Shown piece after piece: positions 68 to 26,916 of a DNA stretch of 26,916 nucleotides. The DNA is taken from IMG/VR virus record IMGVR_UViG_3300006086_000029, positions 1 through 26,916 of that record. One strand, given 5' to 3'. Position 1 is the stretch's first letter. Every line of letters starts with the position of its first letter. Source of the DNA: a virus. The notes beneath the pieces are model-generated. The model did no database searches, was not told where the DNA came from, and saw nothing but the letters and a program-made list of their open reading frames with translations. The translations under genes were made by a program, and so were the position numbers.

Positions 68-1204
68 TTAAAGCGCCAGCTTCTTTATAGCTTCTGGGAT
101 TTCATCTGTTTCATCACCATTATATAGCAGTAAAACAAATTTATCTATATGGTCAGTCAACACTGCACGGTTATCATTGAAAATAAACCAAGCATATTTA
201 ACACCTTCATAACCAGGTTGATGATCTAGCTTGAAGTGTGCAGTAAACATTGTACGTAAAATAGTTGCACGAACACTAGCATGAGTTTCAGGTGTGGTAT
301 GTATAGTTACTTCAATCATTTCACCAACGTCCGTACGATCCACAACACTAGCTTCAAACTTTTTACTAATATTTTGTACAACTGCCTGCAGCGTATAGTT
401 TGATGACATACTATCTATTGGTGGATTAATAGCAACGCTGTCAATGTTGGTTAACAATGTGTATAAAACACCGTCAACAGTTTTCTCAACAGGCACATAA
501 ACATCATACGCTACTTTACCTTCGTAAAAGTGTATACCAGCAATGACACAACCACGAGCAACATTATCAGAGAATGCTAAAAAGCCGCTCAATCCAAATG
601 CTACCATAACCGACTCACCTATAGAGAATGCGGATTGCAACATAGGTTGCTCATTCAGAGACGGTAACTCATACTCACGATAAACTATTGGAGCATTAGA
701 TGAAAGACTTTGCAAGCGTTGGCCCGTCTTAACATCCTTAATCTTGTCGTTGTAGTATCTGCCTTGAGATTTACTGGTTTCAAACAACAAGGCTTCTTTA
801 GGAGATACATTCTCATATTGCCAGACAGCACCACTGCGAAACTCTAATGTTAGAGTCTTTTTAACTTTATCGTAATAACCCTGCTTGAACATAGTACTAT
901 CAATATGAACTTCGTTCTCTTGTCTAGGTACATCCGAACCACCTACGCCAGGAACAACTTTGTAGTTACCTATACGTCCAGCATAACCTGAAGAGTTCTT
1001 AATCATACGCTCTGCATCGAAAGTTTCTACAGGCATCTGAACATCGCGATCCATATCTACGAAATGATAGCGCGATCCTGCTTTCTTTAGTCCAAACACT
1101 TCACCCTTAGTTAAAGATAATTCGTGTTCGTCCGTTTCCAACTTCAGGTTACGTCCGTTATACGTAAACCATTTGTATACTCTAGGATCGCGCTTAGTAG
1201 CCAT
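68..1204 (-). CDS. KTSC-domain phage protein, 378 aa
   Basis: Residues about 100-157 match the KTSC pattern: a short beta meander with an F-x-S/G-G-x-x-W/Y-x-Y core (EFRSGAVWQYENV), then a helix and S-x-G-R-Y-Y-N-D-K-I-K. KTSC is a small domain named from a C-terminal part of lysyl-tRNA synthetase-like proteins and is common in phages; its molecular role is poorly defined. The flanking regions (about 1-95 and 200-378) look beta-rich and are not recognised. The ATG overlaps the stop of the 255-aa gene as TAATG, so translation is probably coupled. A second KTSC protein lies at 15850-16074. Its position next to the terminase suggests a virion or packaging-associated role, but that is inference. 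Confidence 0.85.
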   Translation of the reverse strand: MATKRDPRVYKWFTYNGRNLKLETDEHELSLTKGEVFGLKKAGSRYHFVDMDRDVQMPVETFDAERMIKNSSGYAGRIGNYKVVPGVGGSDVPRQENEVHIDSTMFKQGYYDKVKKTLTLEFRSGAVWQYENVSPKEALLFETSKSQGRYYNDKIKDVKTGQRLQSLSSNAPIVYREYELPSLNEQPMLQSAFSIGESVMVAFGLSGFLAFSDNVARGCVIAGIHFYEGKVAYDVYVPVEKTVDGVLYTLLTNIDSVAINPPIDSMSSNYTLQAVVQNISKKFEASVVDRTDVGEMIEVTIHTTPETHASVRATILRTMFTAHFKLDHQPGYEGVKYAWFIFNDNRAVLTDHIDKFVLLLYNGDETDEIPEAIKKLAL

Positions 1205-1971
1205 TAGTTATCCCATCCAAGTATGTCAGATAAATCAGAATCTACAATACCCGCAGTTTTAAGATCAATAGGTTCGTCTTCGTCACCAGCATGTGATGCA
1301 GGTTCTTTTCGACGCATAGTATGAATATCGTGAGGACCTTTAAGTTTTTCCGTATGTTCAGAATTGTCAGGCTTCTTAATAGACTTTGCACCATGTGGTA
1401 ATCTACCATCCATAGAAGTACCACCGACATGAGTATCTTCTGGCAAGGTCGGATGTTCATCTTTCTTTTGTGCCATGCGCATTATAAAATTCACACGAGT
1501 CACACTACCATCCAGTTTTGCTACACCTACAGTAAGTTTTGTCCAACCATGTGCCATCATAGTTTTATCAAACATCGGAATAAACTTCAATAACAGTTCT
1601 TCAGATAAGTTAAATGCTACGAATGCAAAACCTATTGTACCTTCTGATCGAGAGTACAAATAACAGGAATGTTGAATGCTACGATCCAAACCTAAACGCT
1701 TAGCAATGTCAATAACTAAAGGTTTTAACGCGGAGTCTGGAATAGGTACAGCAGCACGAGGTGGATTGTAAAGGTACTCAACACCATGTTCTACAAGATT
1801 ATGTTTAAACACAGCCTTTTCATGGCGACGTGAGTTACCAACAGGAACATGTTTCTCAGTTCTTGGTAGAACACCACCTGGACGATATAGTCCTTGCAAT
1901 TTATGCTGGTCTTGCACACCTGCAGCTTCTGCGGATAGTAGAGCATCGCTAGTTAATACTTCAATTTCCAT
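1204..1971 (-). CDS. Uncharacterised phage protein, 255 aa, hydrophilic C-terminus
   Basis: No family recognised. The middle (about residues 70-170) looks like a folded alpha/beta domain. The last 90 residues are hydrophilic and low in hydrophobic content, with many K, D, H and P residues, and are probably disordered. They end in a short acidic segment with hydrophobics (DLSDILGWDN), which could be a docking peptide. An AGAGG Shine-Dalgarno site lies about 7 nt before the ATG. The gene sits 38 nt after the terminase stop and overlaps the next gene's start, so it belongs to the terminase transcript. A head-assembly or packaging accessory role would fit the position; nothing in the sequence proves it. 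Confidence 0.8.
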   Translation of the reverse strand: MEIEVLTSDALLSAEAAGVQDQHKLQGLYRPGGVLPRTEKHVPVGNSRRHEKAVFKHNLVEHGVEYLYNPPRAAVPIPDSALKPLVIDIAKRLGLDRSIQHSCYLYSRSEGTIGFAFVAFNLSEELLLKFIPMFDKTMMAHGWTKLTVGVAKLDGSVTRVNFIMRMAQKKDEHPTLPEDTHVGGTSMDGRLPHGAKSIKKPDNSEHTEKLKGPHDIHTMRRKEPASHAGDEDEPIDLKTAGIVDSDLSDILGWDN

Positions 1972-2009
1972 GATACAACCTCTTTAATATAATGCTCTAA
2001 ATTACTTCA

Positions 2010-4205
2010 CTATCTAGCATTCCGAACCATGACACCGATAGAAGAATTATGTGACATAGAGCCACTATTTCCCCCAAAGCCTATACCACCACCGCCACCA
2101 GAAGCTAAACGACTGACAGCCATTAAGCCGCTAGATTTCTGTTCTGGAGCTGCACCAATAAGTAACTCGGCGTATTTATCTGTACTGAGTCCATATACAC
2201 CTAATGCTAATGCGCGCCACGTATCATCAGTTAAACCATCACCTTTGATAACTTGTAGAGTAGTGTCTTGCACAGTTTGCATTTGCATAGCTAGATGATC
2301 TACAGGACGTCCTGCAAAACAGTTAGGATATATCTCATTATCAAATTCCAGTAGTTCGTGGAACTCTGATTTTGTTTCGCGCTTTGGTAATACAAGCGTA
2401 CCTGCTTCTAAGTGAGATTTAGTAATGCCTATATCTTTGTATTTCAAACTATACTGCTCCGCAGTTACACCAGGAAATTCTGCTTCAATGTCGGACAATA
2501 TCTTAATACTGTTCCATCTGTCAGCAAGAACTACCTTAACATTACGCGCAGTGATGATAGGTGATATTACGTTATCATAAATTTGCGTGTAGTTTAATGG
2601 TATGCCAGGTTCTGGAATAATCTCACACATCAACTGTGCAACAAACTCACCAGTCTTTTCATCTATGTGTAATACCGTAATTGAGAAGCTGTTAAAACTA
2701 ACACCTGCATCTATCGTCAACATAGACGGTTTAGTGCCACGTTTAATCTTTTCGATTCTAGCCCATTTGTTTGCTTGACCAGTTTGTTTTCTGTTTTTAA
2801 CAACAGTTTTCAGTTTTATAGGATTAGACTTACCACGAAACGCTTGAGCTATATATGTAATGTTTGACAAATAAGGATTTGCAGATAGTGGAGGGTTAGC
2901 ACCATAGTTACGTTCAGCATCCGCAGGGTTACGTGTATAAGCATCCACAATAACCGTACTATTTCTTGGGAAATCTGGATTCACTTCCCATGTAGGTCTG
3001 TGAATACCATACATTGTCTTACTGCCACGTGCCTGACGAACCAGCGTACAAATCTTGTCACGCTGAGAAACAGGTGACGAAACATTCATACTATAGCCGG
3101 TTAAGATGTTATCATAGCCACTCTTGAGGAGCCTGTTCGCAGCACCGCGTACGGTCAATAGGCTGGCGTCCAGAGCGTCATACACGTGGTGCGCTGAAGT
3201 CTTTACTTTATTGCTGGCAGCATCATTATCGAAGTATCCGATCTCATCTATACCACCAAACACGCGTGTACGGCCACGAAGAACCCGTTTATCTGGACCG
3301 GCTGGATACCACATAAGACTACGTGGTCTGTAGACAACGAATGTATCATTTAGTTTTAATAAAGATTGTCCGTATTTACCTTCATAGTAGCGCAACATGC
3401 TATTATAATTTTTAAACCACTCGGAAGTCATCAGAGTGCCGTAGTAGAATTCCCACAAAGTTTCTTTTGCTTGTGCATACGTCAAAGCACAAAAGGTACC
3501 ATGAAGCATAGTAGAGGATGCAATGCCGAATACGTTGCACGGCTTTTGCATTTTGAGAACTCTGTGAGTCATATAAGGCGTTAGAATACCACCAACACAG
3601 GCGGTCTTACCAGAACGCTGACCAGCTTGTACGGCAAGTTCTTGGTAAAATGTCATCTCCTCTGACAGAACCATTTCACTTTTACGTGCTTTACATGCTG
3701 GGCAAACACCGTGCTCTAGCAATTGTACCTTACGTAAAAATTGAGGTACTGTATCGTCTACTTTATGTGAATGGAATAAATATTCTAAATCTGAACATCT
3801 TGCACAATATTCCCCAAACAAAACTACGCCCCAGATTAACTGCTCTAGGAACGGAGTGATAACAGTACCAGCAAACGAGTCGCGTGATACCCAATCATAA
3901 ACATTCTTTGCTAAGGGGAAATCACCATCATCAATCTTAATGTCTTTTGGTACGAGAGCATTCTCATCCAACACACTGCGCACCATATTGGCAATGTTGA
4001 ACTCCTCTGCAATCATATCAATATCGAAATTTCCAGAAGGCTTTAATAAACCGCCTGATTTTGCAAGTTCAGGATCGAAGTCGTCTCGAGGAACAAGATC
4101 ACCCGACTTCAAACTAGACAACACTGCAAATGGGTCTTGCCCCAATTTCACTAAATCGTAATTGATTAATCCGCTTGACGTTAGAATAATGTCGGATTTT
4201 TTCAT
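2010..4205 (-). CDS. terL: Terminase large subunit (packaging ATPase and nuclease)
   Basis: This is the DNA-packaging motor. Numbered from the chosen ATG, it shows a Walker A motif GQRSGKT near 195-201 and a Walker B motif VFGGIDEIGYF with the catalytic D-E near 320-321. An RNase H-like nuclease domain starts at TIDAG (Asp about 499), with further acidic positions at VLADRW (about 562) and TDDTW (about 660). A four-cysteine cluster, CARC (134-137) and CPAC (168-171), lies between the N-terminal arm and the ATPase and probably binds zinc. The C-terminus is a Gly/Ser-rich tail. The ATG at 4205 is preferred because GGAG sits 11 nt upstream; a GTG at 4217 would be in frame but directly abuts that GGAG. 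At about 731 aa it is longer than typical 450-600 aa homologues, because of its N-terminal extension. A terminator precedes it. Confidence 0.95.
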   Translation of the reverse strand: MKKSDIILTSSGLINYDLVKLGQDPFAVLSSLKSGDLVPRDDFDPELAKSGGLLKPSGNFDIDMIAEEFNIANMVRSVLDENALVPKDIKIDDGDFPLAKNVYDWVSRDSFAGTVITPFLEQLIWGVVLFGEYCARCSDLEYLFHSHKVDDTVPQFLRKVQLLEHGVCPACKARKSEMVLSEEMTFYQELAVQAGQRSGKTACVGGILTPYMTHRVLKMQKPCNVFGIASSTMLHGTFCALTYAQAKETLWEFYYGTLMTSEWFKNYNSMLRYYEGKYGQSLLKLNDTFVVYRPRSLMWYPAGPDKRVLRGRTRVFGGIDEIGYFDNDAASNKVKTSAHHVYDALDASLLTVRGAANRLLKSGYDNILTGYSMNVSSPVSQRDKICTLVRQARGSKTMYGIHRPTWEVNPDFPRNSTVIVDAYTRNPADAERNYGANPPLSANPYLSNITYIAQAFRGKSNPIKLKTVVKNRKQTGQANKWARIEKIKRGTKPSMLTIDAGVSFNSFSITVLHIDEKTGEFVAQLMCEIIPEPGIPLNYTQIYDNVISPIITARNVKVVLADRWNSIKILSDIEAEFPGVTAEQYSLKYKDIGITKSHLEAGTLVLPKRETKSEFHELLEFDNEIYPNCFAGRPVDHLAMQMQTVQDTTLQVIKGDGLTDDTWRALALGVYGLSTDKYAELLIGAAPEQKSSGLMAVSRLASGGGGGIGFGGNSGSMSHNSSIGVMVRNAR

Positions 4206-4231
4206 GTGAAAAGTCACTCCGCAGACAATAA

Positions 4232-4264
4232 AAAAGGCACGGAGAACGAATCCCAGTGCCTTTT
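4232..4264 (-). terminator. Terminator between the 284-aa gene and terL
   Basis: A 9-bp stem (4232-4240 with 4256-4264), read AAAAGGCAC / GTGCCTTTT on the minus strand, is followed by more T residues. It lies immediately after the stop of the 284-aa gene. The A-run on one side and T-run on the other make it potentially bidirectional. No convincing promoter lies between it and terL, so it is probably leaky, or terL is expressed by read-through at a reduced level. Confidence 0.75.
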
Positions 4265-4267
4265 AAA

Positions 4268-5122
4268 TTACTGATTTATTTCTTGATCTTTTTGGGCTCG
4301 GAAATGACCTTCACGGTTTCGCATAGCACCAACAGGGTTATTACCCATGTCAGATACGTTGTTTACTTTACCTTCGGCACTTCTAAATCTAGCAACCAAG
4401 TTTTGCAATAACGAACTATACTTACCTCCGACTTCTTTCTTACGCATATCTGTAACAGTTTCAGTAGCAAGTAGTTTCGCTACCTCGCGCAAATACACGT
4501 TTTTAATGTTATCAGGTATTGAATTCGACCTAGAAAGGAAATGGCTTGTCACAGATAGACGCGCAATGTTTTCTAATGCAGGTACGACTTCCGCTGAAAC
4601 CTCCATATTAATGTTTAAACCATCACGCATAATAGCCTGAGTGGTAGAAGAAGCATTATCGAAAGCAATAAAGTTTGCTACACAATCTCGCAGTATAATG
4701 GATTGTGTAGATTCTGTAAGGTCGTTCAGTAAATCTTTAAAAGCATTTACTTCATCCACATCAATTTCAAACTCGTTTAAAACATCAATACTTTCAGAGG
4801 CTTGCCGCTCAGGTATATTAGATTCAACTAATTCTTGATTAACACCGAACACTGGATGTATTTGTTTATCAACATCGGGTATGGTTGTGTACGTTTCTTC
4901 TCGTAGCTGCTCAGCAACATACGTATTAACAGGGACTGCTCTACCTAAAGTAATATTAGGTTGTGACTCCAAATGAACACGTATGTGATAATCGCGTATT
5001 TTTCTAGCGCGATTTCTAAGCAATTTAGAAAAAGATTTAGCAGATGATGCCCTTCTAGGATTTATAGTTGGGCTAACATCGTCTGTTTTATCGTACACCC
5101 CCATTATAGGGTTTGTTTTCAT
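4268..5122 (-). CDS. Uncharacterised phage protein, 284 aa
   Basis: No family recognised. The N-terminal 60 residues are basic and Ser/Arg-rich (for example KSFSKLLRNRARKIRDYHIR). The remainder is mostly helical, with an acidic stretch near 105-140, and the C-terminus is polar. A GAGG Shine-Dalgarno site lies 5 nt before the ATG. It sits between the replicative helicase and the terminase large subunit and is followed by a terminator. A small-terminase or helicase-loader role would be possible from position alone, but I see no helix-turn-helix or other motif to support either. Confidence 0.8.
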   Translation of the reverse strand: MKTNPIMGVYDKTDDVSPTINPRRASSAKSFSKLLRNRARKIRDYHIRVHLESQPNITLGRAVPVNTYVAEQLREETYTTIPDVDKQIHPVFGVNQELVESNIPERQASESIDVLNEFEIDVDEVNAFKDLLNDLTESTQSIILRDCVANFIAFDNASSTTQAIMRDGLNINMEVSAEVVPALENIARLSVTSHFLSRSNSIPDNIKNVYLREVAKLLATETVTDMRKKEVGGKYSSLLQNLVARFRSAEGKVNNVSDMGNNPVGAMRNREGHFRAQKDQEINQ

Positions 5123-5133
5123 TATGACCTCAT

Positions 5134-6573
5134 CTATGCTAGAACGGGAGACTCATCATTCTGTTGGTCATCAGATTCTTCCTCTAACAAATTGCGCTTC
5201 TTCTTTTTCTTCTTGTCTTTCTTTTTTGTAGAAGATTTAGTCGGAACGTCATCACCATCATCAGAATCATCTTTGTGTCGACCGTTAAACTCAGAACCGC
5301 CGTCTGTATCCGACATGTTATCAACACGCATAACATCATAACGCTCACCGAGATTAAACGAAAACAATTCACCATCACGAGCTTTAGAAACCTCAATAGG
5401 TAATATACGAAGTTCACGTTGTTCTTTTTTAGCGTAGTTCCAAGTCCAAACTAAATCAGCGTGTTCTTTCATACCTTGTGAATAGCGAATCTTATTCGTC
5501 TCACCATCAATCTGACACAATATGATTACTAAACACTTAGCTTCCCTAGAGAATATTTTAGCTTTACGGATGATAGCACTTAGTACACGCCACTGATTGT
5601 CTTCATCGACACCTTCAAGCAAACTAACGTAGTCGAGACCTATTACTTTTGGACCAAAAGGCTTTACAGCACGAAAGGCATCATCAATAGTCATACCTTT
5701 AGTAGGACTGATTGACGAAAATGTACAATCGTTTTCCACACCAAACGCTTCAAAATCTTTGAATGCTTTTAAGAATCTCTGCTTCTCCGCAGGAGACATT
5801 CTACCTTGCTTGATTTTCCAGAAAGGTACACCACTTAACCTAGAACCCATTCTTTGAATTTCTTGAATATCACCCATCTCAAGTGATATACGTTTGGTAC
5901 TAACTCTGTTCAAGCGATGTATGTTGATAAGTAAGTTCATCAACACCGTAGATTTACCGCCAGAAGTGGTGGCACCAATAATCATCACACCTTCTTTTGG
6001 TACACCACCATTACGATCATCGTATTCTGTAAATCCAGTTTTGTACATTTCATTGATTGTTTTGTTGACAGCTTCTTCAATCAATTTTGCAGAGTTACTG
6101 TTCTTACCAAAGTGTACAAACTCATCTTCTACACCTATATTACGTTGTGCAGATAATAGCTTGTCACCTAAAGCACCTAGCAGTTTCTCAACATCAACGT
6201 CCTCAGATTCTACCTTTTCTAAGGCATCATTACACATATCGTAAACAATACGAATCTTACGGTAGTTGTCCAACAGCTCAACAATACTTTTTACTTTCTT
6301 TTTACTGTGCGCGTGTTCAGCGTCAGATTCCCGTAGAATATCACGAAATTCCTCTGACACGGCAGGGTCACTAACAAGTTCGTCGAAATCAATCAAAGCA
6401 AATCGTTTCTTTGCAATGTTATCAATACGATTGAATGCCGCTTGACACGGAGGATAATGGAAAAACTCTTTAGAGAGTTTGCCTAGTAAGTTACTCCGTA
6501 CAAGTTCGGGGACTTTCAGACTCGTTAGTGTTTTAATACAAATCATTTCAACACTTTGGTCGTATATCTGCAT
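5134..6573 (-). CDS. dnaB-like: DnaB-family (SF4) replicative DNA helicase
   Basis: This is the probable replication-fork helicase. An N-terminal helical domain (1-140) is followed by a linker and a RecA-type ATPase: Walker A GATTSGGKST (200-209), Walker B VIGLDYVSLL with Asp about 314, the H4-type motif ILCQID with sensor Gln about 354, and a probable arginine-finger region SKARDGE (396-402). All these features are typical of DnaB and T7 gp4 or T4 gp41-type helicases, and 479 aa is normal for the family. The last 55 residues are unusual: an acidic Asp/Gly segment is followed by a lysine run (KKKDKKKKKKRN) and a short acidic end. This tail is probably disordered and may bind nucleic acid or a partner. 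A GGTGA site precedes the ATG. No recognisable primase lies in the window. Confidence 0.93.
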   Translation of the reverse strand: MQIYDQSVEMICIKTLTSLKVPELVRSNLLGKLSKEFFHYPPCQAAFNRIDNIAKKRFALIDFDELVSDPAVSEEFRDILRESDAEHAHSKKKVKSIVELLDNYRKIRIVYDMCNDALEKVESEDVDVEKLLGALGDKLLSAQRNIGVEDEFVHFGKNSNSAKLIEEAVNKTINEMYKTGFTEYDDRNGGVPKEGVMIIGATTSGGKSTVLMNLLINIHRLNRVSTKRISLEMGDIQEIQRMGSRLSGVPFWKIKQGRMSPAEKQRFLKAFKDFEAFGVENDCTFSSISPTKGMTIDDAFRAVKPFGPKVIGLDYVSLLEGVDEDNQWRVLSAIIRKAKIFSREAKCLVIILCQIDGETNKIRYSQGMKEHADLVWTWNYAKKEQRELRILPIEVSKARDGELFSFNLGERYDVMRVDNMSDTDGGSEFNGRHKDDSDDGDDVPTKSSTKKKDKKKKKKRNLLEEESDDQQNDESPVLA

Positions 6574-6586
6574 AACGTCACCGTAC

Positions 6587-7006
6587 TTACACTATGGTTG
6601 GAGCCACCAGACTCGCGAATTCAGGATTAGTTTTTAATACTAAATCCATCCATTCATTTATTATCGTTGAACCTTCAGTAGGTTTAAGTGATAGTTGGAT
6701 AGCGCGTTTTCTATTTGGCGCTGCTGGTAATACAAACTTAGTAACAGTACCATACATCGCACTATTGGATAATGCGTTTACGGCTATCTGAACATCGGCT
6801 TCAACGAATGAAAAATGCGTATCTAAGTACCAAGCAAGTTTATTGGTAGTTATACGAACATTCTCTTTTATTGTTGCATAGGTTAAATACAACAATTGAC
6901 GCTTGTACTCATCTGGCCGAACAACAGGGAAAGAATTGAAATACAATTTCTCCGCATCTTCGGCAGATAATGCTTGTACGTTATTCTGCGATGGCTGCTG
7001 CTGCAT
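6587..7006 (-). CDS. Uncharacterised protein, 139 aa, upstream of the helicase
   Basis: No family recognised. After a Gln/Ser/Asn-rich N-terminus (residues 1-12) the protein has a short helical domain and then beta-leaning segments, with no Cys clusters or membrane segments. The ATG at 7006 is chosen because GGAG lies about 7 nt upstream; an in-frame GTG immediately before it would only add one residue. The first 26 nt overlap the end of the 390-aa gene, and the stop is 13 nt before the helicase start. Co-translation with the helicase makes a loader or other replisome accessory a reasonable guess, but this is based only on position. Confidence 0.78.
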   Translation of the reverse strand: MQQQPSQNNVQALSAEDAEKLYFNSFPVVRPDEYKRQLLYLTYATIKENVRITTNKLAWYLDTHFSFVEADVQIAVNALSNSAMYGTVTKFVLPAAPNRKRAIQLSLKPTEGSTIINEWMDLVLKTNPEFASLVAPTIV

Positions 7007-8153
7007 CACTTGTCTCCAATTGTTTTGCGATTTCTGGATACGCGGAATATCCTACTTCTTTTACAAACTTGCGGGCTTTGTCTTCACATAAATGTAAGAA
7101 TCTGCACACGTTATCAAAGTAGGCTTCTTGTCCTGCTGTATCATAGAAATCAACATTGTCTTTTGACGCATCTATTTTCGCACGACGGCGAAGGAAACGT
7201 GAAAAGCGTTTATGCTCTTGGCACGCTAACAATTCTAACAACGTCTTACGCTTTGCGGTTACACCATATCTACGAATTATTGATTGGAAGTTAAGTTCAC
7301 TATCACGAGCACGTTCATCATCAAAACATGCACCAGCATCACGCAAGTCATCTAATCCAATTTCTTCACCTTCTGCAACACCAAAGGCTTTCAACAATTG
7401 ATTTTCAGAAACAGTAACTAGATCAAAACGAGTTTGGCCAAAACCATCCTTTACACCTGAATTAATTATACGCGCACGTTTTTGTGTGGTGTAAGATTTA
7501 ATCATATTAATGGTGTGATTATTAAGCGAGGTGCGTATGATATTAGCCACATGCAATTCACTTTTCTGAATAGGTACCATTTTGATATAAGTTTGCAATG
7601 CTTTGCACATCAATTCCATGTGCAAGTCATAGAACTCAGTATTAGATGATACAGTTAAGAACCTTAACTTGGTAAATGTTTTACTACGTATGTGCTTCAT
7701 CAGATCAGGATAAATTGTTTTGAATGTTTTGAATACAGATTTATACGCACCTTCTGTAATCAGGTTCTCAGGTACTTTAGCCGCTGCCTGAGACATTGCT
7801 CGCTTGAATTCACTTTTCTGTAATAATGACCTTAGTATTACGGCATCATTCCTAGAAATATCAAATATATCCAAATACTTTTGAATACGTTGTACAGTGG
7901 GTCGGCGCTGCATTACATTCAACACGAAGAATTTTAAATTTATGTTTATGTAAGCCGTAGAGGCGATAACAAGTCTAAACTTTTGCGCACTATACTCAAA
8001 GTTCTTTCTTTCAATCAGATCTTTAAACTTACGTTGGCATGTATAGGCATCATCAACACCTACAACATGGAGTAAAATAGCTTCTGCTATAGAAAGCAAT
8101 TCAACATCATCACCCAACTTACGAATAGTATTATATAGGGAGTGTTGTGACAT
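6981..8153 (-). CDS. Uncharacterised protein, 390 aa, replication block
   Basis: No family recognised. The protein is predominantly alpha-helical, rich in Lys, Arg, Leu and Phe, and basic overall. There are no Walker motifs, Cys pairs or transmembrane segments. Its C-terminus ends in an alanine-rich segment. AAGG lies 6 nt before the ATG, and the gene starts 8 nt after the stop of the 279-aa gene. It is the largest unassigned gene next to the helicase. A DNA-binding replication or recombination factor would suit the charge and position, but there is no motif to prove this. Confidence 0.82.
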   Translation of the reverse strand: MSQHSLYNTIRKLGDDVELLSIAEAILLHVVGVDDAYTCQRKFKDLIERKNFEYSAQKFRLVIASTAYININLKFFVLNVMQRRPTVQRIQKYLDIFDISRNDAVILRSLLQKSEFKRAMSQAAAKVPENLITEGAYKSVFKTFKTIYPDLMKHIRSKTFTKLRFLTVSSNTEFYDLHMELMCKALQTYIKMVPIQKSELHVANIIRTSLNNHTINMIKSYTTQKRARIINSGVKDGFGQTRFDLVTVSENQLLKAFGVAEGEEIGLDDLRDAGACFDDERARDSELNFQSIIRRYGVTAKRKTLLELLACQEHKRFSRFLRRRAKIDASKDNVDFYDTAGQEAYFDNVCRFLHLCEDKARKFVKEVGYSAYPEIAKQLETSDAAAAIAE

Positions 8154-8161
8154 GATTCACC

Positions 8162-9001
8162 TTAACCGTTAACGTCAATGCTGTATACGCCTTTTTCATG
8201 CGCAGTTTTTCTTAATGTGGTATCCGATTTCTGTTTCTTTTTCTTAGAAACAGCTTTAACATCGAAACCACTTTCGATTGCATTAACAATAGCGACAAGA
8301 TCATTAGGAGCATTAGTCTTATTTTTCTTAATACCGCTTTCTTTGAATACGCGGTCAATCGTAACGATTTCGATACGATCAATTACATCAGTCACACCTA
8401 ATTCATATTCTTCTTCACAACGAATACGTTTAGATACAAGACGTTGAACATTTGGATCAACATAGCGTACGCTCTTCACCATCTTTTCTTTCAGTGGTTG
8501 GAACGCATCGTATGAAATAATAGCGTCTGTGGCATTACCACAAAACGTCATGCAACATTTACCATCTTTACTTGTAACACGTATCATGTCATTATCTGCA
8601 AACAAAATATATGCAAGCATGAAATTTGACAGATAGTTTGATTTTGTCATACCGCGATAACGGACATAAACACGTTGACCAATATTATAGCCAGCGAGTC
8701 TCGTTCTGTGTTCGCGCATAAATGCAGCACCAACTAAACGTAGTTTATCTTCTGGAATACAATTCATTAGTTCGGCTAGCGCACCGAACGTACCCTTAGA
8801 ATCAATAAGTGTAGATAACTTACCGCTATCGGGCTTAAATTGTTTGCATGGTTTATCAGATGCGATTATACCTACACCTTTACATAACTTTTTATCCTTT
8901 AAAATCTCTGTACAAAATCCGACACACTCACCACAGGTCAGTTGCTGGCTTTTCAGACTCGCTTTCACCTTTGCTTGTACGTTCCGTTCTACGGTTGTCA
9001 T
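8162..9001 (-). CDS. Cys-rich N-terminus protein, 279 aa
   Basis: The N-terminus holds five cysteines in a compact pattern: C23, C26, C30, C40 and C52 (CGECVGFC, then LCKG, then PCKQF). This resembles the small metal-binding heads seen on assorted phage proteins. The middle is a mixed alpha/beta domain with another Cys cluster (KCCMTFC near 150). The C-terminus carries basic, lysine-rich stretches (VSKKKKQKSDTT). GAGG lies about 8 nt before the ATG, and the first 74 nt overlap the end of the HNH gene. A nucleic-acid-binding regulator or replication accessory is plausible from the zinc-like motif and basic tail, but I cannot assign a family. Confidence 0.8.
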   Translation of the reverse strand: MTTVERNVQAKVKASLKSQQLTCGECVGFCTEILKDKKLCKGVGIIASDKPCKQFKPDSGKLSTLIDSKGTFGALAELMNCIPEDKLRLVGAAFMREHRTRLAGYNIGQRVYVRYRGMTKSNYLSNFMLAYILFADNDMIRVTSKDGKCCMTFCGNATDAIISYDAFQPLKEKMVKSVRYVDPNVQRLVSKRIRCEEEYELGVTDVIDRIEIVTIDRVFKESGIKKNKTNAPNDLVAIVNAIESGFDVKAVSKKKKQKSDTTLRKTAHEKGVYSIDVNG

Positions 9002-9440
9002 TATGTAGTCCTCTAGATTTTAGCGTATGCGCTATACAATACAGTACCGCTTGATCTAAACTTTTCAATTGAGGAAGTTCAGACTTCAACATCATCAACC
9101 CAGCGTGGATGTTTGCGGGTACCGTAGTTTGTAGTTTGTACTCTTTATCTTCCTGTTGTACAGGTGGATGAAGAATAGATTGGACCAGTATCTCAAGCCA
9201 TTTTTGCGCTCGCTCAAGATCACCAGGTCTTGGCCAGAAATTCTTTTTAATAGGTTTTAAACTGCGTATACGTGCTACAATAGCATTTGCATGTGCATGT
9301 AATACGTTATGGCAGTCAGAACATAAAGGAATTTGCAGGCTGTTTACCCCACCAAGTGCCTGGGGTATAGTGTGGTGCCAATGGAGCAAAGAGAAATACT
9401 TAGTACATATAGTACAGTCACCGCTAGTATACTTCTCCAT
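8928..9440 (-). CDS. HNH endonuclease, 170 aa
   Basis: The first 55 residues carry a textbook HNH signature. C9-x2-C12 and C40-x2-C43 form the structural zinc site. HWHHTIPQALGG (20-31) supplies the catalytic His pair and the loop, and CHNVLHAH (43-50) completes the beta-beta-alpha metal fold. HNH proteins nick or cleave double-stranded DNA; in phages they occur as homing endonucleases or as terminase and replication accessories. The C-terminal 110 residues are hydrophilic and unrecognised. GGAG lies 7 nt before the ATG. The last 74 nt overlap the start of the next gene. The gene is embedded in the replication block rather than beside terL. Confidence 0.92.
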   Translation of the reverse strand: MEKYTSGDCTICTKYFSLLHWHHTIPQALGGVNSLQIPLCSDCHNVLHAHANAIVARIRSLKPIKKNFWPRPGDLERAQKWLEILVQSILHPPVQQEDKEYKLQTTVPANIHAGLMMLKSELPQLKSLDQAVLYCIAHTLKSRGLHNDNRRTERTSKGESESEKPATDLW

Positions 9441-9452
9441 GCCTACTCTCCA

Positions 9453-10628
9453 TTAGAGCGCACTGGTTGTGTTAGAATCCCACGGCCAGCCCCATGACGC
9501 ATCAGCCATGTTACCTTTACGTGCGAATTGATTCTTAACAGCACGTGGTACAATCCAAGCTAAAGCGATACGACCGTTCGCAGGACAAAATTCAAAGTGT
9601 GAGGACATTAAAGTGTAATCGGTACCGGCTTTAGAATTTATACGATCAAGTACCTTAAGTACGAAATCTTCTTGTAGCTTTAAATGTTCTGCGGTACGTT
9701 TACGTGCAGCCAAAGTGTTTGTATTTGCAACACGTTTGGTTTCTGTGATTGGTTTACCGTCATCATCTAATAGCACATCACCATCTTCATCCAAAACAGC
9801 AACTTTACTATTCTTGAAAGTCACCGAGTCGGCGGATTTACGAACAACTTTCTTACCTACAGATTCACCTACAGGTGTAGTAGCAATAGCATAATCGAAT
9901 GCCAGTAAGTATTGGTTGTTGAATACGATGAATGAGTCAGCTATGTGCGTGTAGTCTAAGCCTGTTGTTCGTAGAAACTTAGGGTCTAACGCGGTGAAGT
10001 CGATAGCAGGTACTACGGGGAGTTCTAACATTAAGAATTGTTTACCTTTTAACGTGGTAGGTAAACGACTAGCAAATTTACGGTATGCTTCCAGCTGTTG
10101 GTGAGCGACCTTATTCTCTTTAGAAACAACATCAGCTTCTGATATTTTTTCACCCCTAATATTTTTCAAGGTCTGTTCCATCATATTGACGGTTGCCTTA
10201 CTTGCGTTCTTTTGTTTTGCGAATTTGATTTCCCCTACCAAGTCGTCTTCTGACATATTTGGTTCCAGGGTTTTAGAGTGTGCAATAATATCTCGCACAA
10301 TAGGAAGTGTTACTTCTTTGTAGCTGTCACGAAACGATTTAGCCGATGCTATGGTTCCTATTTCTATACCACGATCTAGAGCATCTAAGTTTTTATTTAG
10401 TTTTACTAAGAATTTCGTGAAAGACTTTATTGGTGCCGTAGCTAGTCCCCCGGACGCAGCTAATTGTTGTACACCTTTTGTTTGATTTTGTAGTTCAGAA
10501 ATGTGTCGGCGAAGTTCCGCTTGCGCACTGAGATTTTTTAGAGAGTTTACATAGGAATGAAATTTAGACACATGTTCGATATATGCAACAACAATATCAA
10601 AAACATGCTTTTGTACTTGATTTGCCAT
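9453..10628 (-). CDS. Uncharacterised helical protein, 391 aa
   Basis: No family recognised. The first 190 residues look like long amphipathic helices (possible coiled coil) rich in Lys, Gln and Ala. The second half is mixed alpha/beta and includes an acidic-basic stretch (DEDGDVLLDDDGKP) near 280-295. The C-terminus is rich in tryptophan (ASWGWPWD near 377-385). AAGGAAA lies 7 nt before the ATG. It is the first gene after a 127-nt structured intergenic region, so it may start a transcript that continues into the replication and packaging genes. Either a virion component or a DNA-binding protein is possible. Confidence 0.82.
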   Translation of the reverse strand: MANQVQKHVFDIVVAYIEHVSKFHSYVNSLKNLSAQAELRRHISELQNQTKGVQQLAASGGLATAPIKSFTKFLVKLNKNLDALDRGIEIGTIASAKSFRDSYKEVTLPIVRDIIAHSKTLEPNMSEDDLVGEIKFAKQKNASKATVNMMEQTLKNIRGEKISEADVVSKENKVAHQQLEAYRKFASRLPTTLKGKQFLMLELPVVPAIDFTALDPKFLRTTGLDYTHIADSFIVFNNQYLLAFDYAIATTPVGESVGKKVVRKSADSVTFKNSKVAVLDEDGDVLLDDDGKPITETKRVANTNTLAARKRTAEHLKLQEDFVLKVLDRINSKAGTDYTLMSSHFEFCPANGRIALAWIVPRAVKNQFARKGNMADASWGWPWDSNTTSAL

Positions 10629-15442: not shown

Positions 15443-15853
15443 TCAACAAATAAAACTTAATGGTTGTTTTTCTGCTAACTGTTTCATTTCAGAAACAAGC
15501 AATTTCTTTTTACCGACTATGTGCCTCGCATTCAACATGAACACAAAGGTTCTTCCAGTGTTGTCAGTAGAATTATAGCCAAATGCAAAGAAGGCTTTAT
15601 CTACTGTGAAGCTCTGGTCGTCGTGACCAAAATCAAGATCAATAAAACCATTAGGCTTTAATTGACTTTGGGCAGTAACATGAATACGACCTAGATTACT
15701 ATCTACCAAGCAGGTATCTTTGTGCGTACCCGCAGAGTTGGTAACATTTTGTAAAACAGAGGCAGCGTAACCTAAACTGTTCAGATTGGCGGCGACTAGA
15801 TTAGCAAGACTTAATTTACGATCACACTTTGTGGTACCTACAATTTTCGTCAT
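15443..15853 (-). CDS. Uncharacterised protein, 136 aa
   Basis: No family recognised. An N-terminal helix is followed by a beta-rich part with Gly, Asn and Asp turns (GFIDLDFGHDDQSF, then FFAFGYNSTDNTG) and a C-terminal helix. This would fit a small alpha/beta domain. The start overlaps the KTSC gene's stop as ATGA, and GAGGAAA lies 6 nt upstream, so it is probably made together with the KTSC protein and may act with it. Confidence 0.75.
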   Translation of the reverse strand: MTKIVGTTKCDRKLSLANLVAANLNSLGYAASVLQNVTNSAGTHKDTCLVDSNLGRIHVTAQSQLKPNGFIDLDFGHDDQSFTVDKAFFAFGYNSTDNTGRTFVFMLNARHIVGKKKLLVSEMKQLAEKQPLSFIC

Positions 15854-16074
15854 TCTATTTCCTCGACTTCTTTCACAGGTTTGATAAATTCGTTTAAATA
15901 CTTACCTTGAGATTCTGCTAATGTAAATGCCATAAACTCTTTCACGGACACGTCAGAATAAATATACTTCTTACCCGACTTAAACGTAACAGATAACTTT
16001 TTCTGCGTAACATGGTATGCTGCTTTTTCTATGTTACTACTAACTATTTTTAATTTCCACACTGGCCTGGTCAT
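15850..16074 (-). CDS. Stand-alone KTSC-domain protein, 74 aa
   Basis: Nearly the whole protein is one KTSC domain: SSNIEKAAYH, then SVTFKSGKKYIYSDV, then FTLAESQGKYLNEFIKP. The central F-x-S-G-x-x-Y-x-Y and the S-x-G-x-Y-x-N-x-x-I-K are the same core seen inside the 378-aa protein at 68-1204. Single-domain KTSC proteins are frequent in phages and bacteria, with roles that are not well established. AGGAGA lies 8 nt before the ATG. The start overlaps the end of the membrane-protein gene by 35 nt. Confidence 0.85.
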   Translation of the reverse strand: MTRPVWKLKIVSSNIEKAAYHVTQKKLSVTFKSGKKYIYSDVSVKEFMAFTLAESQGKYLNEFIKPVKEVEEIE

Positions 16075-16762: not shown

Positions 16763-17482
16763 TTATCCTATGATTGCTTTTCTGTTATGGGAATCTGCAC
16801 GTAAACGACAAGCTGCTCGAATGGCACCATCTACCTCTTCATAGTCCTCGCCAACTTGCCACCAAATACCAAACATTGTTTTGCGCTGCACAATATAGGT
16901 GTCAGGCATCAAAACATTATTTTTGACAGACACCCTATATACGGGTTTACTAGAGAATAAGTTTTTAGATTTCTTAACAATAGCGTCATCCACTTCATTG
17001 ATAACTATTAACAAAGTTACGCCTACTGTAGCAAGTATTACAGCAACAGGTAAGTAACCTATTCCAATACATACACCTAACGCGGCAAGGAACCATATAG
17101 TGGCAGCAGAAGTGAGGCCGCTAACTTTGTTATCTTTCGTAAACATCACACCAGCACCAAGAAAGCCTACACCAGAAACTATCTGTGCAATGATACGTGT
17201 TGGGTCTACTTGACTACCTGTAACGTGTACAGATATTGCGGTGAATATGTAAGTGCCTAGAATAATAAAGATGCTTGTGCGCATACCAAGTTCTTTCTTG
17301 CGCAACATGCGTTCCCAACCAATCAAACTGCCGCAGAAGATTGAAACACCAATAGCATGCCAGTCAAGCGGTGCAATTGATTTAATGGTAGCGATTAGTG
17401 CAGTGAAGTTGAAGTCGCACAAAACAGACAGTGCGAGGGTTCCCAATAACAATGGTAATATTGCGAGATAAAGTTTTGACAT
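16763..17482 (-). CDS. mgtC-like: MgtC/SapB-family membrane protein, 239 aa
   Basis: Residues about 41-165 carry the MgtC/SapB family signature: GSLIGWERMLRKKELGMRTS (51-70), then RIIAQIVSGVGFLGAGVMF (96-114), then VSGLTSAATIWFLAALG (120-136), with 5-6 membrane helices including an N-terminal one. Bacterial MgtC is an inner-membrane virulence factor that in Salmonella lowers F1Fo ATP synthase activity and aids growth in low magnesium. The C-terminal 60 residues differ from MgtC's usual domain: they contain YIVQRKTMFGIWWQV and a helix (DGAIRAACRL), a pattern common in tiny phage proteins, so this may be a fusion. The ATG at 17482 is chosen because AAGGA lies 8 nt upstream; a longer in-frame start would overlap the previous gene. 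Confidence 0.88.
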   Translation of the reverse strand: MSKLYLAILPLLLGTLALSVLCDFNFTALIATIKSIAPLDWHAIGVSIFCGSLIGWERMLRKKELGMRTSIFIILGTYIFTAISVHVTGSQVDPTRIIAQIVSGVGFLGAGVMFTKDNKVSGLTSAATIWFLAALGVCIGIGYLPVAVILATVGVTLLIVINEVDDAIVKKSKNLFSSKPVYRVSVKNNVLMPDTYIVQRKTMFGIWWQVGEDYEEVDGAIRAACRLRADSHNRKAIIG

Positions 17483-17483
17483 G

Positions 17484-17828
17484 TTACACGTCCTTTCTAG
17501 TTGCAATTTTGTTGAAGTGTACCGCTTGTTTTTCAAGCTGAGCTGTTTGGATTAGTCCCATAAATCGTGTTAGATTTATAAAGTTTTTATCTACGATATT
17601 TTCTTCATAGTCGTTATGTAATATAAAATCTTTAACTGCTGCGTAAACTGCGGAGACTAACATAGGTACATTGCGCTTAGCACAGGTAGCACATTTGCGG
17701 CGTTTGTTGCTAACAAATGATATATCTGCGAATGATCGAATAGAATAAACCATCGTTTCAAATTCAGTGATAGGAATATTAAGCCTATCAGTAACATTGT
17801 TTGTATCGACCGTTATTGATATTTGCAT
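17484..17828 (-). CDS. Uncharacterised protein with one CxxC, 114 aa
   Basis: No family recognised. A basic segment carries one CATC pair (C46, C49; KRRKCATCAKR). One pair is half a zinc site, so it may bind metal as a dimer or hold a disulfide. The rest is helical. The ATG at 17828 with AAAGG 9 nt upstream is preferred to a longer frame beginning within the preceding gene. Its last codons contain the ribosome site of the MgtC-family gene (stop TAA, one base, ATG), so the two are translationally linked. Confidence 0.75.
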   Translation of the reverse strand: MQISITVDTNNVTDRLNIPITEFETMVYSIRSFADISFVSNKRRKCATCAKRNVPMLVSAVYAAVKDFILHNDYEENIVDKNFINLTRFMGLIQTAQLEKQAVHFNKIATRKDV

Positions 17829-21388: not shown

Positions 21389-22039
21389 CTATAACCCCAA
21401 TTTGTTTAGAAGCCAAATAGCGTGAACTGCTTGATTCTTTGCATCATCAAGAGCGTTGTGGTAAATGCCTTCACGAATTATTTTACGAGAAGGATAGAAA
21501 CCTTTCAATGTGCGGTAACAAGCTAGGTTAAAGAACTTCCACGGTTCTTCCATACTACAATGATAATAAGCGTGTCGCAATATAGGCACATCAAACTCAG
21601 AACCACATCCCCATAGTTTAGAACCTTTTGGGAACTCATTGAAGTAATCTCTAAACGCTATTAGCGCTAAAGGCAAAGTAGTACCATCACGTTCGGCAAA
21701 ATCAAATATAACGCGAGCTTCTTCTGGTTTAGTTGTCCACCACGTTATAGTTTCCTCGTCCTCATTTAGTCCGTGGAAGACGTTACTACTACGATTGATA
21801 GTAACATAGAATGGTTTAGTTAAATGCGGATAAGGTAGTTTCAACCAATCTACTAAACGTACCCACATTCGCTTTGCAAATTTTTGTGGAGGTCGTGCGA
21901 AACCAACTGCACCTATTGCAAGCACTGAATCACCAGGACGAGTACCTATAGTTTCAATGTCTAGCATAATATCGGTGTATTTAGGTTTAACATAAGCAAT
22001 GACGTGCTTTAAAAACCAATTTAAAAACTTCTGTTTCAT
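21389..22039 (-). CDS. dexA-like: DEDDh 3'-5' exonuclease, T4 DexA / RNase AS-like, 216 aa
   Basis: The DnaQ-superfamily signature is complete: D27-I-E29 (IMLDIETIGTRPGDSVLAIG spans 24-43), D150 in LWGCGSEFDVPILRHAY, and H194-x4-D199 (YHNALDDAKNQAVHA). These are the two-metal-ion residues of 3'-5' exonucleases. The arrangement and length match T4 DexA and the RNase AS type, which trim single-stranded nucleic acids or RNA tails. GGAAG lies 8 nt before the ATG. The first 20 residues (basic with Trp, Phe) precede the fold and could be an interaction helix. The 223-aa gene follows directly. Confidence 0.92.
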   Translation of the reverse strand: MKQKFLNWFLKHVIAYVKPKYTDIMLDIETIGTRPGDSVLAIGAVGFARPPQKFAKRMWVRLVDWLKLPYPHLTKPFYVTINRSSNVFHGLNEDEETITWWTTKPEEARVIFDFAERDGTTLPLALIAFRDYFNEFPKGSKLWGCGSEFDVPILRHAYYHCSMEEPWKFFNLACYRTLKGFYPSRKIIREGIYHNALDDAKNQAVHAIWLLNKLGL

Positions 22040-24045: not shown

Positions 24046-24492
24046 TTATTTTAATGATACTACATTAGACAATGCTTTGTCATATTTTAATGATTCTCGC
24101 GTACTATGGCGAACGATAGTAATTGGAGATTTTGCAAGAACGACACCAGAAAAGAACAGCAGTAGAGAGGCTATATTCATAATCTCTACAACGAAAAGAG
24201 TAGCCAACTCTTCCTTCACATTAATACCTTCTTTGTGCGTGTTAAGCAATTCGAGAAGTGCCTTGTAAATAATAATAACCTCGGACGCAGGCAAAGTAAA
24301 AGCCTCAGAACGATACAAATTTTTCTCAATACGAAACATTGCAGGCTTATCTAACCACAATAACAAACGCGGTATACTAGAGACAGGTTCAATGTTCTTA
24401 ATGCAAGAGGCAATTGAATGGAACAGCGTAAAGTTTATACTAAGAGTAGGCTTATCTGCTACCGTTGTATTGAAATAGATTAAATCGTCCAC
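24046..24492 (-). CDS. Small membrane protein, 148 aa, GTG start
   Basis: Residues about 97-120 form a hydrophobic span (TLFVVEIMNIASLLLFFSGV) flanked by charged residues. The N-terminal part is a soluble mixed domain and the C-terminus is basic. It may be a single-pass inner-membrane protein. Translation probably starts at GTG 24492: GGAGG lies 6 nt upstream, within the last codons of the acetolactate-synthase-like gene. That coupling links its production to the enzyme. No family is recognised. Confidence 0.75.
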   Translation of the reverse strand: MDDLIYFNTTVADKPTLSINFTLFHSIASCIKNIEPVSSIPRLLLWLDKPAMFRIEKNLYRSEAFTLPASEVIIIYKALLELLNTHKEGINVKEELATLFVVEIMNIASLLLFFSGVVLAKSPITIVRHSTRESLKYDKALSNVVSLK

Positions 24493-24494
24493 AA

Positions 24495-26288
24495 TTAACC
24501 TCCTGGAGTTGCTGATTGTTGTGCCAAACCTTTAATACGATCACCCATTGGTGGTACTTCATTGCGATCAATGCGCACATCAATCAATGTAGGACCGTTG
24601 CGCAGAAACAAAACATTAAGGTCGATAGCATCTAATTCTTTTGTTGTTCGTACAATTGTACCGTACGCCCCACTTGCTTTTGCTATTGCAGCGAAATCGA
24701 CAACATTCAATTCCCAGCCGATGCTTTCTTGTCCTCCAAGCTTTTGTCCGTGCATCACCATACCCATAGCACTGTCATTCAGAACTAAAAACACAATGGG
24801 AAGATTATGCTGGACAGCTACAGTTATCTCATGCGAGGACATTAAGAATGAACCATCACCAACTATACAAACAGTAGGTTCATTTGTAGCGAACGCGCTA
24901 CCTATAGCAGCACCAACTGACCATGCCATACTGCCGAAGCCCATTGCAATGTGATACTTACCATCACTGTTCTTGCGTGTTAGATAGTGCGTGGCCCATG
25001 CCCAACTATTACCAGCATCTACAAATATACGAGCATCGTCTACTAGATTGTGACTGAGGCGGTGCATAAGATACTGCGGCTTTATAGTGCTACTTGGTAA
25101 TGTGCAGGCTTTGGAGTTTTTCAATTCAGCATAACCACCGCAAGCATTTAATTGAGTCTTATCTGAAACATTGCTCCACGCTAATTCCGCACCGATAAGA
25201 TTTTCAACCTCAGTATTCATACACTCAAACACGTACTTGATATTGCCGTACACTTGCAACTTAGCCATACCAGAGCGTGTGAAATGTTCTGCACAACTAT
25301 CAATGTGGACCAATTTGTAGTTCAACAAATCAGGACTCCAACCAGACGTACTCAACTCATCTAAAGTGCAACCAATTGCGATAACTGTAACAACGCGAGT
25401 AGATTGGAGTAATTGTTTAGCAGAAGCGTGTCCAGCAAATCCGTAAACACCTAAATAATTCTTATGTGTTTCATCAACAAACGATTTACCTATTGGTGTA
25501 GACATAAAAGGTAAATCTGTTAAATTCAAAAACTCCATAATCTCTTGACTAGCTTCGTGGCAACCTTCACCTACAATCACAGCAATAGAGCTATCTTGCT
25601 CTAAGATATTTAACAATTCTTTTAGTGCATCCGTATCAACAAAATGGTCGTGATTGTTCGTGACACGTTTGATAGCGTGTTTGCAGGTATCTTGGCGAAG
25701 CACATCACTTGGAATACTCAAGTGTACTGGACCTTTATTTTGATAAGCAGCTAACAATGCCGCACGTAGTTTGTGTTCAAGTTGGTCTGCATGTGAAACC
25801 AAAGTGTTGTAATGTGTAATACTTTGGAACATTGCCACAGTGTCTACAGAAGTACAACTACTTTCTTGTAAAGCACGACGGCCGAATTTTGGTAATGGGG
25901 TTTGTGCAGTGATGATAAGCATTGGAATATTATCAGAATACGCGCTTGCAACACCAGTAATTAAATTGGTAGTACCTGGACCAGTAGTGCTGAACACAAC
26001 TGCGAGTTTGCGGGTTTCACGATAGTAACCATCTGCCATGAATGCTGCACCAGTTTCGTGGCGAGCAATAACGGAACGGATAGGACCAAATGCTTTTTGA
26101 TTGCGAGATACAGCATTCAACAGAGGTTCGATAGCACCACCTGGAACACCGAACATAGTATCAATGTTATGCGCAAGGAGATAATCTAATAACATATCTG
26201 CGCTTGTATAAACATCAGAGTAGTGCAGGGCTTGGAATACAGTGTGTGATAATGGGTATTGTGGTGCAGTGATAGCTAATTGTTGCAT
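24495..26288 (-). CDS. ilvB-like: Acetolactate-synthase-like ThDP enzyme, 597 aa
   Basis: This is a full-length thiamine-diphosphate enzyme of the acetohydroxyacid synthase group. The PYR domain has GVPGGAIEPL (47-56), the catalytic Glu in IARHETGAAFMADGYYRETR (74-93, Glu 78), TTGPGTTNLITGVASAYSDN (101-120) and the FGRRALQESSC segment. A central FAD-fold-like domain spans about 190-360. The PP domain has the metal/ThDP motif from GDGSFLMSSHEI (477-488) to LVLNDSAMGMVMHG (501-514), with N-D in place of the more usual N-N. Such enzymes condense pyruvate to acetolactate, the entry to branched-chain amino acids and acetoin; the exact substrate cannot be fixed here. No small regulatory subunit is present. 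AAAGG lies 9 nt upstream. Probably acquired from a bacterium. Confidence 0.93.
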   Translation of the reverse strand: MQQLAITAPQYPLSHTVFQALHYSDVYTSADMLLDYLLAHNIDTMFGVPGGAIEPLLNAVSRNQKAFGPIRSVIARHETGAAFMADGYYRETRKLAVVFSTTGPGTTNLITGVASAYSDNIPMLIITAQTPLPKFGRRALQESSCTSVDTVAMFQSITHYNTLVSHADQLEHKLRAALLAAYQNKGPVHLSIPSDVLRQDTCKHAIKRVTNNHDHFVDTDALKELLNILEQDSSIAVIVGEGCHEASQEIMEFLNLTDLPFMSTPIGKSFVDETHKNYLGVYGFAGHASAKQLLQSTRVVTVIAIGCTLDELSTSGWSPDLLNYKLVHIDSCAEHFTRSGMAKLQVYGNIKYVFECMNTEVENLIGAELAWSNVSDKTQLNACGGYAELKNSKACTLPSSTIKPQYLMHRLSHNLVDDARIFVDAGNSWAWATHYLTRKNSDGKYHIAMGFGSMAWSVGAAIGSAFATNEPTVCIVGDGSFLMSSHEITVAVQHNLPIVFLVLNDSAMGMVMHGQKLGGQESIGWELNVVDFAAIAKASGAYGTIVRTTKELDAIDLNVLFLRNGPTLIDVRIDRNEVPPMGDRIKGLAQQSATPGG

Positions 26289-26302
26289 GATATTTACCTT
26301 TA

Positions 26303-26319
26303 GTGAAATTTAGTGGAAC
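26303..26319 (-). repeat. 17-nt repeat before the acetolactate-synthase-like gene
   Basis: On the minus strand TTCCACTAAATTTCACT lies just upstream of the ribosome site of this gene. It matches 26785-26801 with one mismatch (TTCCACTAAATATCACT), at the same place before the 133-aa gene. Both genes therefore share a short 5' motif. Confidence 0.65.
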
Positions 26320-26338
26320 ATTTAATGACATTTAGTTG

Positions 26339-26358
26339 GAGTAGCAATTGCTACTCCT
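26339..26358. repeat. Perfect 20-bp palindrome
   Basis: GGAGTAGCAATTGCTACTCC is an exact palindrome between the 133-aa gene and the acetolactate-synthase-like gene. As RNA it would be a hairpin with at most an 8-bp stem and AAUU loop, but no T-run follows on the minus strand, so it is not a standard terminator for these genes. It may be an operator, an RNA processing site, or a weak plus-strand stop. Confidence 0.75.
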
Positions 26359-26370
26359 ATTTATTTACTG

Positions 26371-26772
26371 TTAAGCTACTTCTGGTTCTACTACATTGTT
26401 TGCACGGCGTTGTTGCTCGATGCGCCAAAAATCTTCAAAGTTTTGAGCAGTTGGTACTGTAATGCCATACCAGTTATATACAAACACTTTGTTTTGTTCT
26501 TCTGAGAAATCTTCTGCGAGTAAACCATCACCAGGCTCACCTGTAGCAGAGTTCACAACAATTGCGGTTAGTAAAGGCAATTGGTGATGTTGGCACCAGT
26601 TTTGAATCATATCAAGTGTTTGTGCAAACACACCTGCGCCATCATAACCTATATGACCAGCTAGGTCTTTGTACGTCAGCGTTTCGGCACGTGTTGCATA
26701 ACCCATTAAAATAATATAGATTTGAACTGCACGATTTGTGCGAGTAGGGTTATCAGAATAATGTGAATACAT
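26371..26772 (-). CDS. 133-aa protein with winged-helix pattern resembling alkyltransferase-like proteins
   Basis: Residues 12-100 follow a conserved-looking pattern: TNRAVQIYIILMGYA, then TLTYKDLAGHIGYDGAGVFA (31-50), a helix, then PLLTAIVVNSATGEPGDGL (66-84). The T-x-Y-x-x-L-A / G / A-x-x-L order and the following V-V-N-x-x-T-G-x-x-G segment recall the winged helix of MGMT and ATL DNA-repair proteins. The PCHR active-site segment is replaced (PLLTAIV), so alkyl transfer is not expected. This fold call is inference. The gene is the first after the promoter at 26877-26905, with GAGG 6 nt before its ATG. It directly precedes the acetolactate-synthase-like gene. Confidence 0.8.
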   Translation of the reverse strand: MYSHYSDNPTRTNRAVQIYIILMGYATRAETLTYKDLAGHIGYDGAGVFAQTLDMIQNWCQHHQLPLLTAIVVNSATGEPGDGLLAEDFSEEQNKVFVYNWYGITVPTAQNFEDFWRIEQQRRANNVVEPEVA

Positions 26773-26784
26773 ATAAACCTCGAA

Positions 26785-26801
26785 AGTGATATTTAGTGGA
26801 A
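26785..26801 (-). repeat. 17-nt repeat before the 133-aa gene
   Basis: On the minus strand TTCCACTAAATATCACT lies between the shared leader element and the GAGG ribosome site. Its partner is at 26303-26319. Confidence 0.65.
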
Positions 26802-26876: not shown

Positions 26877-26905
26877 ATTATATCACATTTTCAAAACAAG
26901 TGCAA
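26877..26905 (-). promoter_or_regulatory. Sigma70-type promoter with T-tract upstream
   Basis: On the minus strand TTGCAC (26905-26900) and TATAAT (26882-26877) are 17 nt apart, preceded by a T9 run at the window edge that could act as an UP-like element. The spacer and downstream bases closely match the promoter at 19748-19776. It should drive the 133-aa gene and probably the acetolactate-synthase-like gene. Confidence 0.88.
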
Positions 26906-26916
26906 ATAAAAAAAAA

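Follow-up and report, generated by a model that had tools for sequence, protein, structure and literature searches.

What kind of enzyme does a phage acquire, and what might it gain, by carrying a complete gene of the ThDP-dependent type? This question is raised by positions 24495–26288 of IMG/VR record IMGVR_UViG_3300006086_000029, of which the whole stretch of 26,916 nucleotides, here called the window, was analysed. The gene at these positions encodes a protein of 597 aa, P0001, originally predicted to be an acetolactate-synthase-like enzyme.

The gene and its jumbo-phage setting

The gene lies on the minus strand, for which the original prediction gave no strand, and reads from 26288 to 24495 as an uninterrupted open reading frame with an ATG start and a TAA stop; the plus strand is crowded with stops in the same interval. 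Pfam recognizes three full-length ThDP domains in P0001, namely the N-terminal PYR domain (residues 29–142, 25863–26204, minus strand; PF02776, TPP_enzyme_N, 5.8e-39), the central domain (residues 223–353, 25230–25622, minus strand; PF00205, TPP_enzyme_M, 2.1e-23) and the C-terminal PP domain (residues 424–571, 24576–25019, minus strand; PF02775, TPP_enzyme_C, 1.9e-32). The alignment places the catalytic glutamate at Glu78 (codon 26055–26057, minus strand; sequence context ARHETGAAFMADGY), which is invariant in 13 aligned sequences, and sequence and alignment together place the GDG of the ThDP/Mg motif at residues 477–479 (24852–24860, minus strand), followed by X24 and Asn504. This domain and motif evidence for a ThDP protein is far above chance. 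Judged by the three TPP domains, the catalytic Glu and the GDGX24-27N motif, P0001 belongs to the ThDP decarboxylase/carboligase superfamily, and the predicted presence of a complete ThDP enzyme with catalytic Glu and GDG in a phage genome is borne out by reading frame, Pfam domains and motifs alike. AlphaFold gives a model of moderate confidence (pLDDT 72.6, built from only 13 sequences), with the active-site stretches 131–148 and 509–525 falling below a pLDDT of 50.

The window is a jumbo-phage fragment, as its large terminase (2010–4217, minus strand) is 53% identical to that of the Pseudomonas jumbo phage PaBG. Positions 71–10628 are collinear with 72.2–81.1 kb of PaBG over about ten genes, including a DnaB-like helicase and an HNH gene, and the P0001 gene occupies the far end of a 16-kb variable region whose genes, on the same strand, are small and mostly uncharacterised. 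The window also encodes an MgtC-family protein of 257 aa in the variable region (16763–17536, minus strand; PF02308, 4e-31), an Rv2179c-like 3'-5' exoribonuclease/exonuclease (21389–22039, minus strand; PF16473, 1.2e-33) and two KTSC-domain proteins (68–1204 and 15850–16074, minus strand), the larger of which also has a KMPT-N metallopeptidase-fusion domain.

The P0001 gene has a phage-like GC3 of 0.32, compared with 0.50–0.61 in its bacterial orthologues, and its codon usage correlates with that of the phage core genes (r = 0.83). Since both GC3 and codon usage are phage-like, the gene is not a recent chimera; codon usage and gene order together rule out a recent joining of bacterial and phage DNA. 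In addition, of 100 alignment columns that hardly vary among 45 bacterial orthologues, P0001 retains 97, while IlvI, BbmA, CsmA and others keep 62–72. The conservation of these positions, taken with the phage-like codon usage, indicates long residence in the phage under constraint. With its catalytic residues also kept, P0001 does not look like a member of a non-decarboxylating or inactive clade, the placement that the original prediction had named as refuting it.

No other phage with the gene was found in IMG/VR, by protein, orthologue-alignment and DNA-motif scans, or in INPHARED, and the gene was absent from PaBG and two IMG/VR terminase relatives in a search run without a positive control. 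As the gene is known from a single phage in IMG/VR and INPHARED, any benefit that it brings may not extend to phages at large. Fold matches to P0001 in BFVD are limited to two giant-virus enzymes with 18–21% identity. Its sole PHROG match, phrog_11199, represents the general acetolactate-synthase family rather than a phage-specific one, because it matches every one of the 14 bacteria and archaea used as controls and gives IlvI-like genes higher scores (577–624 bits) than P0001 (318 bits).

Judging from gene arrangement, the ThDP gene appears to stand second in an operon, and a single transcription unit would be the simplest picture. The likely first gene, located 5' of it, encodes 133 aa (26371–26772, minus strand), has no assigned function and has no Pfam, PHROG or NCBIfam match; on the other side, a phage gene of 148 aa, also without assigned function (24046–24492, minus strand), starts 2 nt past the ThDP stop. 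The ThDP gene had been credited with its own consensus-like promoter. This is not confirmed: TTTGCA-18-TATAAT, the strongest promoter-like candidate (26877–26906, minus strand; 10/12 match, -10 preceded by TG), is upstream of the 133-aa gene and about 590 bp from the ThDP start, and the 10 promoter-like sites in the region are at chance level (9.1 +/- 2.7 in shuffles). A 17-nt leader repeat, TTCCACTAAATWTCACT, precedes the two consecutive genes, as TTCCACTAAATATCACT before the 133-aa gene (26785–26801, minus strand) and as TTCCACTAAATTTCACT directly before the ThDP start (26302–26318, minus strand), with a weaker third copy between the two genes (26324–26340, minus strand). Three matches at up to 3 mismatches compare with 0.39 expected, and one of 100 shuffles reached three. 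Between the same two genes lies a perfect 20-nt palindrome, GGAGTAGCAATTGCTACTCC (26338–26357), a possible operator or RNA hairpin.

Bacterial orthologues and their sensory module

A genome scan recovered 17 orthologue loci with 51–60% identity to P0001 over residues ~25–597, the N-terminal ~25 aa of P0001 being divergent. The hosts are Cellvibrio, other Cellvibrionaceae, Teredinibacter, Pseudomaricurvus, Bowmanella, Alteromonadaceae and related MAGs. The orthologues of Cellvibrio, Teredinibacter, Pseudomaricurvus and Bowmanella share with P0001 both the motifs and a C-terminal SATPGG tail (24498–24515 in the phage gene, minus strand), which is present in 12 aligned close bacterial orthologues, one of them reading SMTPGG; TPGG is invariant in 13 aligned close orthologues. 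Strong ThDP matches, defined by E <= 1e-90 in a scan of 294 genomes from the order that includes Cellvibrio mixtus, occur in 41 of those 294 genomes and in 38 of 369 of the class (about 10–14%). In a maximum-likelihood tree from a quick search, in which the P0001 branch is long (0.92), P0001 groups with the Cellvibrio, Teredinibacter and Pseudomaricurvus sequences (SH-aLRT 98), and the Alteromonadaceae rows fall outside this group. By these comparisons P0001 is a member of a ThDP orthologue group of aquatic gammaproteobacteria which, as far as found in the open-access literature searched, is undescribed.

In bacteria, the orthologues belong to a recurrent c-di-GMP sensory module, whereas P0001 is alone among phage genes. 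Around 37 orthologue loci, a histidine kinase (HK) or REC-(PAS)-GGDEF-EAL cluster is present at 34, a TonB receptor at 30, two citrate-synthase-like proteins, A and B, at 32 and 34, respectively, and a PF04392 (ABC_sub_bind) periplasmic binding protein at 18, some of the absences being due to contig ends. The parts of the module vary, and two Cellvibrio loci have MotAB instead of the citrate-synthase pair. The module forms a single operon in some of the genomes. At locus L063, this operon has six same-strand genes with near-zero gaps, the last protein of which combines sCache, HAMP, HK, REC, Hpt, GGDEF and EAL domains. The linkage is also apparent at the genome level: a citrate-synthase-like protein is encoded in 34 of the 41 genomes with the ThDP orthologue and in 8 of the 253 without it (294 genomes; Fisher p = 5e-30, uncorrected for kinship). 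The two proteins of the pair are half-size, at ~270 aa each (12461–14165 in L022, 10690–12311 in L063 and equivalents), and resemble citryl-CoA lyase 6hxp. Their His-bearing motifs are replaced in both the alignment and the family consensus, so that they may not be ordinary enzymes. An HMM search detected no other module gene in the window, which covers only part of the far larger phage genome and has the ThDP gene at its end. No description of the module was found in the open-access papers searched.

Enzyme class and proposed role

The best PDB relatives of P0001 are BbmA (8x3x) and CsmA (8x3z), by sequence (273.7 and 238.6 bits vs 181 for a plant AHAS), by profile (355 and 326 vs 261 for AHAS I) and by fold, where one search gave a small lead with CsmA tied with pyruvate oxidases. 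Their PDB titles read 'ThDP-dependent HKA synthase', where HKA stands for alpha-hydroxy-beta-keto acid, a name also used in PMC13307353. NzsH and CqsB3 couple indole-3-pyruvate with pyruvate (PMC9822442, PMC7466098) and are of the same functional kind; unlike the module orthologues they are found in natural-product gene clusters and not beside c-di-GMP genes. As in P0001, the RFDDR stretch of AHAS is absent from BbmA and CsmA, its place being taken by a stretch similar in form to CTLDELSTSGW in the P0001 central domain, and a small residue occupies the position of the AHAS specificity Trp (QWQ). In the alignment this residue is Gly514 of P0001 (24747–24749, minus strand) and Gly484 of BbmA, and the replacement suggests a carboligase with room for a partner bulkier than pyruvate alone. 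In the tree BbmA and CsmA lie next to the module clade of 46 rows but not within it, on long branches, and they are about 26–30% identical to P0001, so that its reaction could differ from theirs. The best NCBIfam match, to the ScyA-related TPP enzymes (NF035927), scores 309.9 bits, and with a cutoff of 1000 bits P0001 is not a member of that family. On the basis of these relatives P0001 is likely a carboligase, and its product may be of the acyloin type.

The original prediction had taken an N-D in place of N-N in the ThDP motif as a possible sign of a different substrate or a catabolic type. The pair is real (Asn504-Asp505, 24774–24779, minus strand) and the idea of another substrate was roughly right; the N-D itself is unremarkable, as the GDGX24-27N motif requires a single Asn (PMC3534367) and ND is invariant in 13 aligned close orthologues.

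We give an even chance to the reading that P0001 is a functional orthologue, carried by a jumbo phage whose core resembles that of PaBG, and that it makes an acyloin-type molecule belonging to a c-di-GMP sensory circuit of the host. As a first step, a 2-oxo acid would likely undergo ThDP-dependent decarboxylation and then be joined to another oxo acid. The resulting compound, perhaps with the participation of the citrate-synthase-like pair, would then be the molecule handled by the receptor, the binding protein and the kinase, and the kinase in turn may act through the GGDEF-EAL output on motility or surface life. A phage with the synthase alone would raise the level of the product during infection; its likeliest use of the enzyme would be to sustain or overdrive the molecule of the module, resulting in a shifted host c-di-GMP state or metabolism. 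The signalling ketone listed in the original prediction was roughly right in direction. A stronger version, in which the module is a make-and-sense circuit, with an acyloin-type signal read through TonB receptor, binding protein and kinase into c-di-GMP, and in which the phage captured the synthase alone to drive host signalling, is unlikely on the present evidence. The module itself reads almost equally well as one of nutrient uptake, sensing and catabolism.

The main alternative, possible if somewhat unlikely, is that the module takes up, senses and degrades an external compound, with the ThDP enzyme as a catabolic lyase or decarboxylase whose phage copy supplies carbon or redox. The TonB receptor and periplasmic binding protein would suit such a function, as would the NMT1-type ABC transporter directly upstream in several Cellvibrio loci, and relatives of citrate synthase and citryl-CoA lyase suggest carbon metabolism. 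However, the alignment shows no matching catalytic-His motifs in the citrate-synthase-like proteins, and the conserved genes include no dehydrogenase, thiolase or acyl-CoA ligase. What recurs constantly beside the enzyme is a c-di-GMP output protein, not a set of catabolic enzymes.

That P0001 is a true acetolactate synthase, drawing off pyruvate into acetolactate free of valine feedback and so feeding branched-chain amino acid or acetoin formation, is very unlikely. The enzyme shares with AHAS (IlvB, IlvG, IlvI) and AlsS the superfamily, the catalytic Glu and the GDG...N motif, and acetolactate models are among its better-scoring NCBIfam matches. Nevertheless, its scores are at most slightly above half of the respective cutoffs (TIGR00118, 298.3 bits vs 538; AlsS TIGR02418, 228.1 vs 551), and it lacks the RFDDR, the IPKD lysine and the QWQ Trp of the aligned IlvI/IlvB, having CTLDELSTSGW, IPSD and HGQ in their place. 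Moreover, bacteria with an orthologue carry an IlvI-like gene besides, 28–30% identical to P0001, and the maximum-likelihood tree sets P0001 apart from the IlvI/IlvB rows (SH-aLRT 99). No ACT-domain, IlvC or IlvD gene was present among the window ORFs scanned. Cutoffs, motifs and tree thus exclude P0001 from AHAS and AlsS. With them falls the acetolactate-synthase-like assignment, and the proposed supply of branched-chain amino acids or acetoin is not supported. The argument that the enzyme escapes valine feedback lapses as well, since P0001 is not an AHAS large subunit.

Acetolactate synthases reported from phages were considered as a precedent and rejected: the 57 INPHARED records are all below 35% identity to P0001 and apparently mostly bacterial contamination. 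Host-size contigs point this way, as does an ilvD-ilvB-ilvC-leuA operon in one record (MT880872, L005). Many ilv-bearing 'phage' records, this one, AFYI01000001 and OR847010 among them, resemble bacterial contamination and would distort any census of metabolic genes in phages.

Finally, a chance passenger, or a non-catalytic moonlighting protein or binding decoy, would fit a gene known from one phage so far and is very unlikely for one that is intact and codon-ameliorated and that has kept all catalytic residues and 97 of the 100 near-invariant positions despite its long branch.

Significance and comparison with known systems

What was read as a phage acetolactate synthase becomes a pointer to a conserved bacterial module, undescribed as far as the open-access literature shows. 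If the product is a signal, c-di-GMP control would have a chemical input of a new kind, and the phage would be an example of a virus that delivers the synthase of a host circuit and nothing else of it. With the enzyme, the module and hosts in culture (Cellvibrio, Teredinibacter, Bowmanella), the idea is directly testable.

Among known systems, alpha-hydroxyketone signalling, represented by LqsA in Legionella and CqsA in Vibrio, offers a comparison in how it works, with a small-molecule synthase beside a two-component sensor. Neither LqsA nor CqsA is known to be a ThDP enzyme. A parallel on the phage side is provided by Phaeobacter prophages, which carry LuxI systems (PMC13345283): there too a host-type signal synthase resides on a phage, as P0001 would if its product serves as a signal.
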